This document shows, in pieces, positions 4,757 through 29,069 of a stretch of 29,117 bases of DNA. Below the pieces are notes generated by a model. The model had not been told where the DNA came from. It saw only the letters and a program-made list of their open reading frames with translations, and did no database searches. The position numbers and the translations under genes are program-made. How positions within the stretch are numbered: the first letter of the stretch is position 1; each line of letters opens with the position of its first letter. Origin of the DNA: a virus; IMG/VR virus record IMGVR_UViG_3300033388_002079, positions 1 to 29,117 of that record. One strand, given 5' to 3'.

Positions 4757-5758
4757 TTAGTCTTTTGAGATTAATTTAATTAGCATAGAAGTATCCCCTA
4801 TCCCACTTCCCCATATATCAACTGTGTCCGCAGATGCATGATTAACGTATGCTTGAAGAACAACAGTATCGTTTGCACTTAATGAATTTATGCTCATCAC
4901 ATGATTAGTCACATCACCTGCAATAGCAGCCTGTGCCCAATGAGAGTTATAAGCGGCCACACCATCGTATGTTTGTCCACCGTAAACTGTATCAGCTATT
5001 ATAGAAGCACCTGACCAAGCAATTTTAAAAGAAATGAGGTATTTTCCTTCTATAGGAGCTGTAAAAGTATAGGTTCCTGTGTTAAAATTAGATCCTATAT
5101 CATAAAACTCTGCATTAAGGTGAACATCTGTCCAAGTTTTATGAATAATATTTAATTGCTGAGCACTTAAGTAGGCTAAGCATTCTGGCACTTGCCCCAA
5201 CGCTTCATCTTTAACCTGCCAATTACTTCCATCACTTACCACCGTTACCTCTGCACAATAAGTATTTAATCGCGCATAAGTTTCTTTTGGCACTCCATCA
5301 GCGTTTTCATAATTAAAAGTTTCAGTGCCATTACCATCAAGCGTGATTAGATTATAATTAGCGTCAGTTTTTTTGAAGTGATAAGTAAGTCCTGCATTGC
5401 CTACTGCGGTGGGTAAGGTTATTGTATAAGGAGAAGACGCAGAAACTAAAACCAATCCTGCTTCTGCCACCGTTAAGGTTGCTGTTGTTGTTTTTGATAC
5501 GACTGAATTATCTATCTTCACATTGGGGATTCCATAGTTATCAAGCCCCGTCATTGAGGTTATGTCGGAGTTGACGCCTGCATCAGCATAAATCCCGTCA
5601 AAGTAAGTCTTCAGGAACGCCTTGATACTTGTCCAGCTACTTCTTTTAGTCTCCCCGGTCGCCTGATTTGTGGTATCGGAGACGTCCCGGATGGTTATAT
5701 TATCCCCGTTTGCTAACTCGGTTAGTTCTACTAAATCACTATTTCGTTTGTTCGCCAT
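4757..5758 (-). CDS. Tail fibre with C1q/TNF-like tip domain
   Basis: A 333-residue fibre protein. The N-terminal 60 residues (LVELTELANGDNITIRDVSD, then SIKAFLKTYFDGIYA) are typical of phage fibre attachment regions. The middle (about 85-185) is beta-rich, with the pattern LTVAEAGLVLVSASSPYTIT, FKKTDANYNLITLDGNGTE and VVSDGSNWQV, seen in many virion surface proteins. The C-terminal 140 residues (DVHLNAEFYDIGSNFNTGTY, TAPIEGKYLISFKIAWSG, ...VVLQAYV...MLIKLI) match a C1q-like jelly roll, which normally trimerises and binds ligands; in a phage it would be the receptor-binding tip. Ribosome site AGGAGGCA before ATG 5758. Confidence 0.72.
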   Translation of the reverse strand: MANKRNSDLVELTELANGDNITIRDVSDTTNQATGETKRSSWTSIKAFLKTYFDGIYADAGVNSDITSMTGLDNYGIPNVKIDNSVVSKTTTATLTVAEAGLVLVSASSPYTITLPTAVGNAGLTYHFKKTDANYNLITLDGNGTETFNYENADGVPKETYARLNTYCAEVTVVSDGSNWQVKDEALGQVPECLAYLSAQQLNIIHKTWTDVHLNAEFYDIGSNFNTGTYTFTAPIEGKYLISFKIAWSGASIIADTVYGGQTYDGVAAYNSHWAQAAIAGDVTNHVMSINSLSANDTVVLQAYVNHASADTVDIWGSGIGDTSMLIKLISKD

Positions 5759-21364: not shown

Positions 21365-22480
21365 CTATGATGTCATTATGTTTTTTATTTTTTCAACTTC
21401 TGCTTGTATCACCTCAACGTCCCGTTGAGTGCCTTCTCTTCGTCGCGAGAGAAGTGCCTTCGCCTCTTTTTGAGAAAAACCCACGTCACGTAAGGCTTGC
21501 TCTTTTTTCCTTATTGTTGGTTCTCCAGCCGGCACATTTGCAAACATCGAAAGATCAAAGTTTGCTTTTGCCACGCCCGTATCGAGAACCGTATCGACAA
21601 ACCCTCGGTCTTTTGCTTCTTTTGCCGTAAGCCATGTTTCCTCTTTCATCATTTCTTTCAGTTCACGTTTCCCGATATTGGAATTGTCAGAATAAATATC
21701 AACCATATTCACACTGATTTTTGCTAAGATATCTGCTATATCCCGAAGCTCATATTGATTTCCGGCTGTCAGTACCCACGGATCATGGATCATATACATA
21801 GCATTTTTATGAGCCTGAACCTCGTCTCCAGCAAGCGCAATAATGGAAGCTATTGATGAAGCGATTCCTTCATTCTTTGTGGTAACTCGTGCCTTATGCT
21901 CTCGGAGGGCATTATATATAGCCAAGCCATCAAAAACATCTCCTCCAGGTGAATTAATGCGAATCGTAATATTCTTGCCTTTAATCTCTCCGAGGGCCCG
22001 AACTAAATCAAAAGCATCGTTGTACGGATAACCGATCACATCATAGATAATGATTTCCGTTTCCTCTTCTGATTTTGCCTCTATTTTATACCAATCATTT
22101 TTCTCTAAAGGCTTTCCCCAGAAAGAAGCGATAGCCTTTGCGTTTTTTTCTGTTCTATATGCTAATCCCATTGTATTCCCCTTAATTAAGGCAGATTTTT
22201 GTTCCTCGGCAGGTTCAAATTTTATATATTCAATATCATGATCCTTAAGCCATTTTTTTGCTTTCTTAACAGTGAAATAATCAACATGAAATCTATATGA
22301 TTGTGCAGTTGTGGTTGTTTCGCCCTTTAATTTTCCAATAATTACTCTAATTCCAGTATCAATCTTTTTAGATCGAAAAGAATTCTGCTCAAAATCTTCC
22401 GGTTCACGAATTCGGGCTGAGTGTTCTGTTGGATATGGAATAGTAATCGCCCCCTTGTCTTTTATTATATTATGTTGCAA
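21365..22480 (-). CDS. ClpP-like head maturation protease with N-terminal extension
   Basis: A 371-residue protein whose residues 128-320 are a phage ClpP-type serine protease: DWYKIEAKSEEETEIIIYDV, ITIRINSPGGDVFDGLAIYN (oxyanion region at 175-180), GIASSIASIIALAGDE (nucleophile Ser at about 209) and MYMIHDPW (His232). It should cleave the capsid delta domain. The first 115 residues are extra: IPYPTEHSARIREPEDFEQN, FTVKKAKKWLKDHDIEYIKF and EPA, resembling a module of XkdF/prohead-type proteins. The longest start is TTG 22480, overlapping the HNH stop by 11 bases; no strong ribosome site precedes it, and the HNH insertion may have altered its original start. The C-terminus is charged and helical. 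Confidence 0.82.
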   Translation of the reverse strand: MQHNIIKDKGAITIPYPTEHSARIREPEDFEQNSFRSKKIDTGIRVIIGKLKGETTTTAQSYRFHVDYFTVKKAKKWLKDHDIEYIKFEPAEEQKSALIKGNTMGLAYRTEKNAKAIASFWGKPLEKNDWYKIEAKSEEETEIIIYDVIGYPYNDAFDLVRALGEIKGKNITIRINSPGGDVFDGLAIYNALREHKARVTTKNEGIASSIASIIALAGDEVQAHKNAMYMIHDPWVLTAGNQYELRDIADILAKISVNMVDIYSDNSNIGKRELKEMMKEETWLTAKEAKDRGFVDTVLDTGVAKANFDLSMFANVPAGEPTIRKKEQALRDVGFSQKEAKALLSRRREGTQRDVEVIQAEVEKIKNIMTS

Positions 22481-23327
22481 TAGCTAAAGATGGTTGAAAT
22501 GATCTTTCTATCCTTGCGCCTTTGCTTCTATTCTCTGATTTCTCTAATGGTTGAAGATTTTTAAGACTCCAACATAATCTAAAATCAACATCATCAGGCT
22601 TTTCAAAATTAAATGCAGCTATTGGAATTTTGTGGTCTATTTCCCAAACTGTTCCATAATTCTCCCACGACATACCCGGCTTGAATAGTTTTTCAAGATG
22701 ACCTTTGAGTTGATCTACTGTAAAATCTACAAGCTCTTCCCAATGGCGTTTATTCTTTGTACCATTATCAAACAATGATGTTCTAATCCGTCGGGATATA
22801 CTACCACTAACTCTATATTTTATATTTTCTCCTCGTTTTTTATTCGCCCTTCTCATCGCAGCCCGGTCTTTTTCAGGATTAGCAGCTCGCCATCTTTTTA
22901 GTGCATCTCGTTTCTTTTCAGGATTAGCTTTGATCCATGCGTCACGAGTAATTTTGTCTCTTTTCTTGTGTTCTTGCCGATAAACCTTTGCCCGAGCCGC
23001 CTTTTGCTCTTTTGTTCTTTCGTTGTATTCTTTTATTTTATCTTTATTTTCTTCAGCATATTTTTTCGCATAGGCTAATCGTTCTTCTCTATGCTCTTGA
23101 TGATATTTCCTTGAGTAGGCTTTTATCTTTTCTGGATTTTTAGTTTTCCATTCTTTGCTTTTTAAACTATCCCCTTCCTTATTTTCAGCATGTCTTTTTC
23201 GAGTATAACTACGAGCACATTCTTTACACCATACTCCAATACCACTTTTATTTCGTGAGCATTTCATGAACTCTGAATAAGGTTTTACTATATTACACCT
23301 TGCACATTTTTTACTTAGATTTTTCAT
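22470..23327 (-). CDS. Free-standing HNH endonuclease between portal and protease
   Basis: A 285-residue homing-type endonuclease. An N-terminal zinc ribbon has Cys8, Cys11, Cys34 and Cys37 (KKCARCNIVKPYSEF, GVWCKECARSY). Residues 40-175 are a long, very basic helical region with a repeated motif of the type (N)PEKxxxxxxxWRxxNPEKxR, probably wrapping along DNA. The HNH nuclease lies at 215-275: WENYGTVWEIDHKIPIAAF (Asp231-His232), FRLCWSLKNLQPLEKSENRS (Asn257). It overlaps the portal end by 17 bases and the protease start by 11 bases. Its A+T-rich composition and A-rich coding strand differ from the capsid genes, as expected for a transferred element. Confidence 0.85.
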   Translation of the reverse strand: MKNLSKKCARCNIVKPYSEFMKCSRNKSGIGVWCKECARSYTRKRHAENKEGDSLKSKEWKTKNPEKIKAYSRKYHQEHREERLAYAKKYAEENKDKIKEYNERTKEQKAARAKVYRQEHKKRDKITRDAWIKANPEKKRDALKRWRAANPEKDRAAMRRANKKRGENIKYRVSGSISRRIRTSLFDNGTKNKRHWEELVDFTVDQLKGHLEKLFKPGMSWENYGTVWEIDHKIPIAAFNFEKPDDVDFRLCWSLKNLQPLEKSENRSKGARIERSFQPSLAIAT

Positions 23328-25467: not shown

Positions 25468-25646
25468 CATTCCACCACCGGCCTTGATTTTAGAGCCTCT
25501 TCCCGGGGTATCCTTATCGTCCCCCCTTTCTTTACGGCCTGTATAACTCCCTGATCAATCCAAGAATAAATGGTAGAGACAGCTACAGACCAGTAGTCGG
25601 CAACTTCATCAGGCCTTAACAACGGCTTGTTTGGTAGTTTGGTCAT
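25467..25646 (-). CDS. Small helix-turn-helix protein (excisionase/HTH_17-like)
   Basis: A 59-residue DNA-binding protein: NKPLLRPDEVADYWSVAVST, IYSWIDQGVIQAVKKGGTIR, IPREEALKS. This is the MerR-like winged helix of excisionase/AlpA-type proteins (LLxxxEVAxxxxVxxxTIYxWIxxGxIxAxKxGxxxRIP). It could be a regulator or recombination directionality factor; no integrase is present, so a regulator of the nearby plus-strand promoter is possible. Its ATG overlaps the upstream stop (TAATG at 25646-25648), so it is coupled to the gene before it. Confidence 0.72.
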   Translation of the reverse strand: MTKLPNKPLLRPDEVADYWSVAVSTIYSWIDQGVIQAVKKGGTIRIPREEALKSRPVVE

Positions 25647-25933
25647 TAAGCCTCCCTACTAAGTGTGCCGATTTCCATGCCATCTTCAAGAACCATAACT
25701 TTTACATCGTATCCATAGTCCTTGATTGTTCCCCGAACGGCATTCTTGATATTTATGCGGCCCACGTCCGATAGCTTACCACCATACCGCAGGACAACAA
25801 TATCACCGTCCTTTACGTCAAGTTTCTGCATCGACTGAAGCCAGTTGACACTCTGCTCCATCTCTGACAACATCGGCTCTATTACTTCCTTCACCTGCTC
25901 ATTTGATACCCTTGGCCTTAGAAAGTTAAACAT
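25646..25933 (-). CDS. Accessory small protein, paralogue of the C-terminal part of the 14707 gene
   Basis: A 95-residue protein. The C-terminal 65 residues (WLQSMQKLDVKDGDIVVLRY, GGKLSDVGRINIKNAVRGTI, KVMVLEDGMEIGTLS) parallel residues 58-122 of the protein encoded at 14707-15075; the match LQSMQKL is shared also at DNA level (20 identical bases around it). The N-terminal 30 residues (MFNFLRPRVSNEQVKEVIEP) are different. The pattern DGDIVVLR...KLS...VMVLEDGMEIG recurs in phages without known function. It overlaps the truncated upstream gene by 16 bases, with its own ribosome site GAGGAGG inside that gene. Confidence 0.65.
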   Translation of the reverse strand: MFNFLRPRVSNEQVKEVIEPMLSEMEQSVNWLQSMQKLDVKDGDIVVLRYGGKLSDVGRINIKNAVRGTIKDYGYDVKVMVLEDGMEIGTLSREA

Positions 25934-26085
25934 ATTTCCTCCTCTTCAAACTCCATTATCTTAAAAGATTGCTTTTGCTCTTCCTTTAATGTCTCATAAT
26001 AAGCCTTGGCCACACCAAGCGGCCCCCATAGGATAATACCATTATCAGACATCAATTCCTCATTCCAAAGTCCGTAAAATCTCAT
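25918..26085 (-). CDS. Short protein formed from repeat copy B (leader gene cut short)
   Basis: A 55-residue open frame starting at ATG 26085 with ribosome site AAAGGAGAG: MRFYGLWNEELMSDNGIILW, GPLGVAKAYYETLKEEQKQS, FKIMEFEEEEICLTF. Residues 12-48 are also present at the start of the 14707-15075 protein. After EFEE the shared sequence stops and the frame ends seven residues later, overlapping the next gene. So at this locus the long protein is split into this leader piece plus the 25646-25933 gene. The full leader MRFYGLWN is in frame here, unlike copy A. Confidence 0.62.
   Translation of the reverse strand: MRFYGLWNEELMSDNGIILWGPLGVAKAYYETLKEEQKQSFKIMEFEEEEICLTF
25942..26085 (-). repeat. 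Copy B of the dispersed repeat
   Basis: 25942-26055 is identical to 14965-15078 (114 bp), and 26056-26085 matches 15081-15110 with one difference. Same orientation as copy A, 11 kb away. The left border of the identity lies within GAGGAGG, the ribosome site of the 25646-25933 gene. Confidence 0.95.
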
Positions 26086-26097
26086 TCCTCTCTCCTT

Positions 26098-26670
26098 TCA
26101 AAAAGCAACATTTTCGAGTATTTCTTCTTTCGACATACCCCTCAAGATAGTAGCGTTTCCTTTACGCTTTTTTATCTCTTCTGGGGTAAGGTTTTCATGG
26201 GGGCAATATCCATAAAGGCCAAACGATTGATTGCAGTTATGGCATAAAACCCTAAATCCTTCTGGAAAATTGTTTTTTATTAACCATCTATGAAAACTTT
26301 TTGTGCCCAGAGATGCTCTATGAACCCTTCCCCCACCATTAATATGATCTATAGCCAAAAATTCATAATGTGATTCTCCACAACAAGCGCATTTCCCCCC
26401 ATAATGTTCTATACATTTCATGCGCTTGTCTCTTCTGTCTTTTGCAACACGGGCATTATTTTTTTCTTTATTTTTTAAATGCCAATCATGAGAGTATTGA
26501 TCTCTGCGTTTTTTGTATTCGGGATCATGTTTATATTTTTTATGATATCTTTTTCTTACATCTTCGGTATGGCACATCTTGCATATTGTGTGATGCCCGT
26601 CCTTTTTCCTTTGATTTGAATAAAAATCATCAATAGGTTTTTCAATGCCGCATTTAGTGCATACCTTCAT
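26098..26670 (-). CDS. HNH endonuclease with TerL-like C-terminal tail
   Basis: A 190-residue homing-type endonuclease. An N-terminal zinc ribbon (Cys4, Cys7, Cys30, Cys33) is followed by a basic helical linker (about 40-85) and an HNH core: CACCGESHYEFLAIDHINGG (Asp108-His109, Cys94, Cys97) and RVLCHNCNQSFGLYGYCPH (Cys143, Cys146). The last 13 residues, GMSKEEILENVAF, closely resemble the TerL end GMTKAEILASIAF. The ATG overlaps the stop of the ribbon-helix-helix gene (ATGA at 26667-26670), so both are made from one transcript with the promoter at 26832-26860. Confidence 0.85.
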   Translation of the reverse strand: MKVCTKCGIEKPIDDFYSNQRKKDGHHTICKMCHTEDVRKRYHKKYKHDPEYKKRRDQYSHDWHLKNKEKNNARVAKDRRDKRMKCIEHYGGKCACCGESHYEFLAIDHINGGGRVHRASLGTKSFHRWLIKNNFPEGFRVLCHNCNQSFGLYGYCPHENLTPEEIKKRKGNATILRGMSKEEILENVAF

Positions 26671-26807
26671 GTTTCTCTCCCTTTCAGCACGTTCTCAATT
26701 ATCACCCGCGCCATTTGCGCCACTGGTCGGCTTTCCTCTTCAGCCTTCTTCTTTAAAGCTTTGTGGGTATCCTCTTTTAATACGATCGTAATAGGATGCT
26801 TTTTCAT
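26667..26807 (-). CDS. Ribbon-helix-helix (CopG/Arc-like) regulator
   Basis: A 46-residue protein, MKKHPITIVLKEDTHKALKK, KAEEESRPVAQMARVIIENV, LKGRET. The beta strand ITIVLKEDTHKALKKKAEEE followed by RPVAQMARVIIENVL is the classic ribbon-helix-helix pattern of small dimeric repressors and antitoxins. It stands directly behind its own promoter and is coupled by ATGA overlap to the HNH endonuclease, so an autoregulator that limits nuclease production is the simplest reading. Start ATG 26807 has GGGG six bases upstream. Confidence 0.8.
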   Translation of the reverse strand: MKKHPITIVLKEDTHKALKKKAEEESRPVAQMARVIIENVLKGRET

Positions 26808-26831
26808 GATTTTCCCCTGTTTTTTTATTAT

Positions 26832-26860
26832 ATTTTATATTAGGATGAATGTAATGTCAA
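26832..26860 (-). promoter_or_regulatory. Strong sigma70-type promoter for the RHH-HNH pair
   Basis: Read leftwards: TTGACA (26855-26860), 17-base spacer, TAAAAT (26832-26837), in a very A+T-rich gap of 72 bases between terL and the regulator. It gives this cassette expression independent of the late operon and would also read into the 26085-25467 genes. Confidence 0.78.
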
Positions 26861-26879
26861 TCTTTATTTTTAGTTATAA

Positions 26880-28616
26880 TCAAAAAGCTATAGAAGCCAA
26901 GATCTCAGCTTTTGTCATGCCTTCATAAACAGACTCTTCATGGTGTTGGAGTGCTCGCCCTATCCCCATAATCATGGCTACGACTCCATCTATCTTATTT
27001 TCGTTTTTCTGTTTAGTGGGGTAGTAGTACTTTACCGGTCCAGTATTTCTGCCCTGTCTCTGGACCACATTTCCCATCATCCATGTTAAGACAGGATCTC
27101 CAGCATGCCATAATTTATTATCGTAAATAAGACCTTCTGTTTCTTTCATTGGTTCCGACATAAGCGCCGGGCCTTGGGTGATCTCAATACACCGTTCCGC
27201 CCCTAACCAATCCATGACATTGTTGACAAGATAGGTGGCTTCTTTCGGATCAAAAGCCAGCTCAAAAATAGGATGATTTGCGTTTATTTCTTTCAGGTCG
27301 TCTTCGATATACTTGAAGTCAGTCCGGGCGCCAGGGGTAGAAGTAATATATCCTCCTTTTTCCCATTTGTCGTAATGCTCATTTCCGGCCAGTTGTATTG
27401 TCTCTTCGGGGAGATAGTGCCGAGCAAACACAACATAGCCATTCACATATACCCCACTGATTTTTCTCTGATGTTCGAAGATCAATACCAGAGAAGAGAT
27501 ATCAATCTTCGAAGCAAGGTCGAAGGCAACATAACAGGTCTGCCCCTTGAAATCTTCTAACTTCAAAGACTCGTCTTTACACGCTTCCCACTTGACCATA
27601 TTCATCCAAGCCTTACCAGCATTCCTCCACTGATTCAGGTGCATACACAGATTGATGTTCTGCTTAGAGACGTCTGTCATGGCTTCATTATATTTCCGGT
27701 GAAGATAGTCTTTGTTGATCGACACCCCATAGTTTGGATTTGCCTTTTTCCAAACTTCAAAATCCTTGAAATCATCATCAGGAGAGATGGTAAAAAGAAT
27801 CGCAAAGAAGGTCTCATCCTCTATTGTCTTTTCAAGAACCTTTATCGCTTGGAGATATAGATCATAACAAGGGCTTGAGGTATCCGTCCCCGCAGTCGAA
27901 ATAACAAACATCATAGGCTGTTCTCTTGCACCCATACCTGTGTTCATGTTGTCGAACTGCTCACTTGTTTTGTGCTCGTGGTACTCATCAATAATAGCGC
28001 AATGAGGGCTTGATCCAAATCCGGGCTTGCCGATAAGAGGTTCAAAACGGGACATATCAGAAAGACGATATATACTCGTAGGGTTTCGGGGGTTCCCGGA
28101 AAGAGAAAGATCGAAGTGATCACGTAGGTCTTTATTCCTGTTTGCCATTTGCCAAGCCGGGCGGAAGACTTCAAGAGCTTGCTTCTCTGATGTGGCTCCT
28201 GAATAAACCTCGGCGCCTTTCTCTCCATCGGCGGCTAACATGTAAAGTCCTGTATCTGCTCCAGTTACACTTTTCCCGTTCTTCCGAGGCTCCAGAATTA
28301 ACACTGTATTGAATCTTCTCAATCCATCAGACTTTTTTACCCATCCCCAGATACAACATCGCTTAAAAATCTGGTAAGGTTCAAGCTTTAGTCTCTGCCC
28401 TGCCCACTTTCCCTTGACATGGTGTAACTTTTCACTGAATGCACACCGTTTATTGGCTTTTTCCTTGTCGAATTTGTAAGGGAATTCCTTCGTTTTCGCT
28501 CGTTCCAAATCATCAAGGTGTCTCTGACATGCAGCTATAACATAGGGACCCGCAGGGATTTTGCCGGAGGTAATGTCATTGCAGTATTTTAGAGCTGTTT
28601 TTGTGTAGTCGGTCAT
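26880..28616 (-). CDS. terL: Terminase large subunit
   Basis: A 578-residue packaging motor of the HK97-like Terminase_1 group. ATPase domain: LKLEPYQIFKRCCIWGWV, Walker A-like EPRKNGKS (109-116), EVYSGATSEKQALEVFRPAW, Walker B CAIIDEYHEH (206-215) and VISTAGTD. Nuclease domain: VAFDLASKIDISSLVL (Asp366), FELAFDPKEATYLVNNV (Asp456) and KIDGVVAMIMGIGRALQHHE (Asp543). Full length. The end GMTKAEILASIAF is partly repeated at the end of the nearby HNH protein. ATG 28616 abuts the terS stop. Confidence 0.95.
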   Translation of the reverse strand: MTDYTKTALKYCNDITSGKIPAGPYVIAACQRHLDDLERAKTKEFPYKFDKEKANKRCAFSEKLHHVKGKWAGQRLKLEPYQIFKRCCIWGWVKKSDGLRRFNTVLILEPRKNGKSVTGADTGLYMLAADGEKGAEVYSGATSEKQALEVFRPAWQMANRNKDLRDHFDLSLSGNPRNPTSIYRLSDMSRFEPLIGKPGFGSSPHCAIIDEYHEHKTSEQFDNMNTGMGAREQPMMFVISTAGTDTSSPCYDLYLQAIKVLEKTIEDETFFAILFTISPDDDFKDFEVWKKANPNYGVSINKDYLHRKYNEAMTDVSKQNINLCMHLNQWRNAGKAWMNMVKWEACKDESLKLEDFKGQTCYVAFDLASKIDISSLVLIFEHQRKISGVYVNGYVVFARHYLPEETIQLAGNEHYDKWEKGGYITSTPGARTDFKYIEDDLKEINANHPIFELAFDPKEATYLVNNVMDWLGAERCIEITQGPALMSEPMKETEGLIYDNKLWHAGDPVLTWMMGNVVQRQGRNTGPVKYYYPTKQKNENKIDGVVAMIMGIGRALQHHEESVYEGMTKAEILASIAF

Positions 28617-29069
28617 CTAAAATCCTTCAAATTCATTCTTCTTTTCTGTACTCTTGCCGGTTCCGAATTTCAAACCATCCACATGTGTTAATCCCATTGC
28701 CGCAAGTAAGGACTGGGCATGTCGAAGAGCCTTCTCTCTTAACTTAGATGCTGGATGTTCTTTAATAATAGCATCTCCGAATGAGTTTGAGGTTTTGTAA
28801 GTTGCTCCCTCGTTCTCAATCGTCTTGTCGCATTCTTCCACTTCACATAACCTTTGAGCACACATTGTCTGTACCTCTGTATAAGAAGCTGTTGCCCTAC
28901 TTCCAAGCCTCTCTGTAAGAATGTTGAAGATTTGCTTTTCTCGTTCTGATAGAGCTTTCGGTGGAATGGGTTTTTGAGCAGAGACCTCTGGTTGCCCTTT
29001 ATCTCGACATGCTTGATATGTTCCTTTTGCTTTTTTAACGTCAATCGGAATGATTTTTCTGCCTTGCAT
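28617..29069 (-). CDS. terS: Terminase small subunit, P27 type
   Basis: A 150-residue protein of the P27-like small terminase group, which recognises phage DNA and loads TerL. It shows the family layout: basic start QGRKIIPIDVKKAKGTYQAC, the Pro-rich then helical PPKALSEREKQIFNILTERL, helix YTEVQTMCAQRLCEVEECDK, and the end HPASKLREKALRHAQSLLAA, MGLTHVDGLKFG. It is the first late gene in the window; ribosome site GGGAG lies before ATG 29069, and the stop adjoins terL. The late promoter should lie beyond the window edge: the last 48 bases show no clear -35 box. Confidence 0.85.
   Translation of the reverse strand: MQGRKIIPIDVKKAKGTYQACRDKGQPEVSAQKPIPPKALSEREKQIFNILTERLGSRATASYTEVQTMCAQRLCEVEECDKTIENEGATYKTSNSFGDAIIKEHPASKLREKALRHAQSLLAAMGLTHVDGLKFGTGKSTEKKNEFEGF

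Follow-up and report, generated by a model that had tools for sequence, protein, structure and literature searches.

The closest precedent for the arrangement described here is the mORF gene hybrid of fungal mitochondria, known from atp6 in Allomyces and from atp6, atp9, cox2 and nad3 in Glomus (PMC3630166). In these hybrids, an endonuclease ORF lies at the 3' end of a gene, the resident gene carries a foreign C-terminus, and the native C-terminus is displaced downstream. Compared with a relative, the displaced native C-terminus has 91-98% DNA identity and the inserted one 64-81%, and the protein is nearly identical (PMC3630166). Phages have free-standing HNH homing endonuclease genes (HEGs), such as the mob genes of T4 (PMC2988022) and the HEGs of ICP1 (PMC10448857). 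According to the available excerpts of these sources, they lie next to essential genes, including terminase genes, near which the ICP1 HEGs cluster, and their flanks are co-converted; the same excerpts do not mention a duplicated or recoded gene terminus. In Aeh1 nrdA/mobE ('genes in pieces'), as far as the excerpt of PMC3322345 goes, an HEG resides inside an essential gene whose function is kept. In HomeR, a synthetic drive in Drosophila, Cas9 cleaves an essential gene at its 3' coding end, and the drive inserts itself with a re-coded, uncuttable 3' end that rescues function (PMC7968924).

We analyzed a virus record of 29,117 bases (IMGVR_UViG_3300033388_002079), called the window, in which a matching arrangement is found at the 3' end of terL (Table 1). 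The mORF hybrids have LAGLIDADG or GIY-YIG enzymes, whereas the present cases have HNH nucleases of tailed phages, also occur at the 5' ends of genes and, in the window, include a ribbon-helix-helix (RHH) gene. Since the nuclease is of the HNH type and the genomes are those of phages, the locus would work like an mORF hybrid without being a member of that set. The excerpted account of Aeh1 describes a gene left in two pieces, whereas here a replacement end completes the gene. HomeR is engineered; the phage cases are natural, and cleavage in them is putative. The open-access literature that was searched holds no description of the arrangement in phages, which is weak evidence of novelty because its coverage is incomplete.

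Table 1. Features of the terL locus in the window, and gene ends duplicated around HNH genes in other loci. The native or foreign origin of the terL ends is assigned by comparison with relatives.
Feature	Locus	Position (strand)	Description
terS	window	28617-29069 (-)	
terL	window	26880-28616 (-)	large terminase subunit, 578 aa, invaded gene; Pfam TerL_nuclease 1.1e-36, TerL_ATPase 5e-19; PHROG 9
Replacement (foreign) 3' segment of terL	window	26880-26996 (-)	about codons 541-578 and stop; tail GMTKAEILASIAF; upstream boundary approximate
Cassette promoter-like site	window	26832-26860 (-)	sigma-70-like, TTGACA-17-TAAAAT; 11/12 consensus
RHH gene	window	26667-26807 (-)	Arc/CopG-like, 46 aa; Pfam RHH_5; PHROG 3180
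HNH endonuclease gene	window	26098-26670 (-)	N-terminal zinc-finger-like CxxC motifs; nuclease body about residues 1-177; PHROG 2255
Displaced native 3' end of terL	window	26098-26139 (-)	GMSKEEILENVAF-stop, in-frame fusion to HNH gene
RBS-like spacer 3' of displaced tail	window	26082-26097 (-)	AAGGAGAGA; like the sequence downstream of terL in relatives
Duplicated gene start	L158		minus-strand gene, MATFQV.DECG
Duplicated 3' end	L176		minus-strand gene
Duplicated 3' end	L163		minus-strand gene
Duplicated N-terminus	L316		presumably DUF932-like
Duplicated N-terminus	L267		P-loop N-terminus
Duplicated gene start	L184		gene that we take to be cytosine-methyltransferase-like
Short duplicated tail	L196		

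The C-terminal likeness of TerL and the HNH protein, pointed out in a preliminary description of this DNA, was confirmed. The last 13 residues (GMTKAEILASIAF on TerL, GMSKEEILENVAF on the HNH protein) are identical at eight positions, with conservative T/S and I/V changes, and the two tails share 27 of 42 bases, stop codons included. Which tail is native can be judged from L014, a viral contig whose TerL is 95% identical to that of the window and ends in NMSKEEILENIAF. An HTH gene follows terL directly in L014, and no RHH-HNH is present downstream. The HNH-borne tail matches the terL tail of L014 at 33 of 39 nucleotides, 27 of them contiguous (window 26111-26137). The last 13 codons of the window's own terL match it at 22 of 39 nucleotides. 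Over the last 38 codons, terL agrees with L014 at 78 of 114 nucleotides, against 1419 of 1620 in the body of the gene (codons 1-540; Fisher p=2.7e-7), and these terminal 38 codons are its most diverged stretch of that length. Identical residues use the same codon in 334 of 489 cases in the body and in 9 of 26 at the end (p=0.0009); the resident 3' segment thus encodes the same kind of peptide with different codons. Because the HNH tail diverges from L014 as the terL body does, and the resident tail far more, the native 3' end of terL has moved onto the nuclease. By this comparison, the HNH-borne tail is the displaced original, which now lies about 740 bp downstream of terL as an in-frame extension of the HNH gene, and terL itself ends in a replacement. 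The displaced terminus is closer to the relative than the resident one, as in mORF hybrids, and the identities of 85% (native) and 56-68% (inserted) compare with 91-98% and 64-81% there.

The surroundings of the displaced tail agree with this reading. The sequence 3' of the HNH stop, TGAAAGGAGAGA, also lies 3' of terL in the related locus L017, and its counterpart in L016 is TAAAAGGAGAA. A 23-base core of the tail matched only the L014 contig in IMG/VR, in a search that possibly excluded the window's own record. About 125 TerL loci were searched for a repeat of their C-terminal 14 residues within the following 2.5 kb. The window reached a score of 42; the runners-up scored 34, 30 and 26, none of them ending at a stop, and the window gave the only good stop-ending match. 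In the preliminary description, the event had been read as a cassette insertion near the terL 3' end, by which terL acquired one tail and the nuclease kept the other. The L014 comparison supports this proposal, and as predicted, one of the tails, the HNH-borne one, matches the empty site. Its interpretation was thus largely right, but 'mimic' was the wrong word for the HNH tail: it is the old terL end in a new place and did not evolve as an imitation.

Between the displaced tail and the HTH gene lie two short ORFs (55 and 95 aa; window 25646-26085), neither of which was seen after terL in L014. A second and different HNH gene, of the W..DHKIPIAAF type, is present between the portal gene and the next gene in both the window (22470-23327) and L017 (4940-5788). 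In L016, positions 4863-5057 resemble a deletion remnant of this gene.

A promoter, an RHH gene and a nuclease had been placed between the two tails, and a promoter-like sequence, an RHH gene and an HNH gene were recovered there. Five promoter-like sites were found in the scan against 4.2 expected by chance, the strongest being the TTGACA-17-TAAAAT site. The RHH protein scores 28.9 bits with RHH_5, above the Pfam cut-off of 26. The HNH start overlaps the RHH stop as ATGA, so the reported coupling of the two genes stands. The HNH protein belongs to PHROG 2255 (E=3.5e-18) and has the conserved DH...CHNCN motif and paired cysteines; the DH, CxxC and CHNCN columns are invariant across its homologues. 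Pfam HNH models gave no match to it above their cut-off, and a sequence search of the PDB found no relative. In a fold search against the PDB, the best matches were the weak ones to the Cas9 HNH domain and the Gme HNH nickase (E 0.016-0.036). The terL-RHH-HNH cassette was found at this position in no other phage. In L023 (373-1237), an HNH-like ORF is followed by an RHH gene whose product is 51% identical to that of the window, and then by terS and terL, a hint that RHH and HNH genes occur together near terminase genes. The search for further RHH-HNH pairs that had been suggested yielded none in the same order, the order in L023 being HNH-RHH-terS. The RHH protein is probably an autoregulator, but its earlier description as the dedicated repressor of the nuclease is less well supported, as the RHH-HNH order appears in no other locus examined. 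The RHH protein and the HNH tail may each have functions of their own.

We consider it likely that the window carries a homing cassette built around an HNH endonuclease, which is directed at the end of an essential gene and brings a recoded copy of that end with it. The presence or absence of the cassette, the displacement and the recoding come from the comparisons above; cleavage, homing and protection are parts of a proposed mechanism. During mixed infection, the nuclease would cut the native terL end of a cassette-free phage, and repair would copy in both the cassette and the recoded terL end, through which terL function would be kept. The recoded end would lack the recognition sequence, and we propose that the invaded genome is immune because its terL end no longer fits the nuclease. 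The old end would stay on the far side of the insert and, if in frame, would become the C-terminus of the nuclease.

A mirror image of this arrangement is seen in L016 and L019, where a different HNH gene occupies the 5' end of terL. There, the first ORF opens with a TerL-like N-terminus (MTKDYTPTALKYCKDIVSGSIPA and MSDYPKTALQYCIDVTSGKIPA) in frame with the nuclease, and terL then restarts with a diverged N-terminus. Compared with relatives that are empty at this site (the window and L014), the displaced N-termini match at 68-76% of bases and the resident ones at 52-65%. Separately, TerL of L017 (510-3290) has an intein-like insert of about 350 residues in its P-loop (GK/ALEINT...TITHN/S), whose first residue is Ala and not Cys.

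Terminus duplication was also sought around other HNH genes by comparing both flanks in all reading frames at 127 testable, non-redundant related HNH loci; an earlier protein-level flank test had been confounded by low-complexity frames. Eight of the 127 scored at least 60 (cases 60-136). The cross-locus null gave scores up to 44.5 among the first 10 of 47 null matches listed. Among control ORFs, a set without deduplication, 14 of 552 scored at least 54, and by eye most of these were tandem paralogues, tRNA translations or GC-rich frames. Only one control, L188, looked terminus-like, and it is itself an HNH gene of the Endo VII type (1010-1426), located between imperfect copies of a short sequence, TACCCTCAGYGACARCTTTGGGA, found at the start of the next gene; it may represent a comparable event in a different HNH family. 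Clear diverged duplicates of a terminus flank the HNH gene in L158, L176, L163, L316, L267, L019 and the window, and also in L184 and L016. Residues are largely kept in these nine pairs, but the same codon is used at only 29 of 95 identical residues (2 of 13 in L184, 2 of 13 in L176 and 2 of 12 in L316). A tail-anchored test, in which the HNH protein and the product of the upstream gene had to share at least 5 of their last 8 residues, gave three loci (the window, Gordonia phage AnClar and L196) against a null of about 0.04. By these tests, most loci of the window's HNH family (more than 100 of 128) lack terminus duplication. Other cultured HNH loci, in Arthrobacter, Synechococcus, Keanu, ANB28, Munch and Manatee Spring phages, did not show it either.

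Three candidates were left out: L144 (Streptomyces phage Galactica, genes 102-104), where the HNH gene lies between paralogous copies of a whole gene, L225, a tandem HNH, and L245, which is borderline. Other HNH loci have features of their own. In L147 (2231-3949; uncultured phage LR756511), the HNH frame continues with no stop into a nicotinamide-phosphoribosyltransferase-like frame. L325 and L146 (Stenotrophomonas phage ANB28) have two related HNH genes near each other: nrdA and nrdB enclose one of them, and the other is upstream of nrdA.

The alternative that survives best, though we regard it as improbable, is the plain homing of a free-standing HEG with co-conversion of its flank. The terL flank would then come from a diverged donor, the duplicated tail would be an accident of joining, and recoding would play no role. 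Flank co-conversion is standard for phage HEGs in the excerpted account of the T4 genes (PMC2988022). The foreign tract in the window is about 38 codons long, and the diverged N-terminal tract of L016 and L019 extends to about the P-loop. The replacement tail of the window has amino-acid changes (8 of 13 residues kept), and it could therefore be a diverged, co-converted homologue and not a specifically recoded end. Against this alternative, duplicated termini recur at several unrelated genes with near-random codon agreement, and AnClar presents a much shorter change. AnClar differs from the near-identical Yago84 by a 489-bp HNH insert, which is also absent from the same site in Sisko and BiggityBass. 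Codons 1-192 of its ParB-like gene are identical to those of Yago84 (188/188 informative). At the protein level the last seven residues agree as well, but only two of the seven codons are common, and the stop has changed from TGA in Yago84 to TAG in AnClar; Sisko shares one of the altered codons, GAA. The native 18 bases, AAGGTGGTGACGGTATGA, form the 3' end of the AnClar HNH gene, matching Yago84 at 18 of 18, and this gene still overlaps the following one as ATGA. Ordinary co-conversion from a diverged donor would not be expected to change the last few codons synonymously, together with the stop, beside a tract of identical codons. Judged from these genomes, a protein-neutral, codon-scrambled end next to identical DNA is hard to explain other than as cargo of the nuclease element.

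Functional mimicry is a very unlikely explanation. TerL C-termini contact portals, and the TerL-like tail of the HNH protein could dock on the portal or motor within the packaging machine, as in HK97-like HNH proteins adjacent to terminases. The tail has been kept and is predicted to be partly helical, at low confidence: the AlphaFold model (mean pLDDT 84.7) has a confident nuclease body, C-terminal blocks at 56-58 and a poor last 30 residues. HNH proteins encoded near terminase genes can act with terminase, according to the excerpt of PMC10448857. However, the 27 bases identical to terL at the empty site mark the tail as a displaced original, and the same pattern occurs at non-terminase genes and at N-termini, where docking makes no sense. 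A packaging role like that of HK97 gp74 is further disfavoured by the position of the HNH gene 3' of terL and by relatives at non-terminase sites. HNH homologues mostly end 0-15 residues past the conserved CPH motif, and none has the tail of the window; the GMSKEEIL ending, whose occurrence at unrelated sites had been named as evidence against an insertion, is not on HNH homologues elsewhere.

A group I intron or intein spliced out of terL, in which case the true 3' exon would be the HNH-borne tail and the terL tail a read-through extension, is scarcely credible: some introns have an HNH ORF in frame with the downstream exon, and L017 has its intein-like insert, but the upstream tail is of a functional type and complete down to its stop, superfluous for an intron, the gene is intact without splicing in AnClar and L184-type cases, and Rfam intron or RNA elements were absent from the region at the gathering threshold, with chance-level matches at a relaxed one. 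The tail motif is short enough for a chance likeness of two lysine/glutamate-rich helical tails to be raised, but the match to L014 refutes it, no comparable copy exists in about 125 other TerL loci, and both copies end in a stop, leaving it a next to negligible probability.

With somewhat less assurance than for the window itself, we favour the view that this family of phage HNH nucleases consists of natural home-and-rescue elements. Such an element would combine a nuclease with a recoded terminus for either end of an essential gene, keeping the protein and making the invaded allele uncuttable, and would recur across phages and targets. AnClar and Yago84 make the idea directly testable, as they are near-identical cultured phages with the same annotated host strain that differ by the insert. 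Displaced native ends would provide a signature for active HEGs and their target sites, because the displaced end would mark the cut region. The process would account for some gene tails next to HEGs whose codon divergence is unexplained. It would also be a natural counterpart of engineered re-coded rescue drives. In this way, by bringing a synonymous replacement end, a homing nuclease could do without an intron or intein and still occupy an essential gene at its most conserved part.
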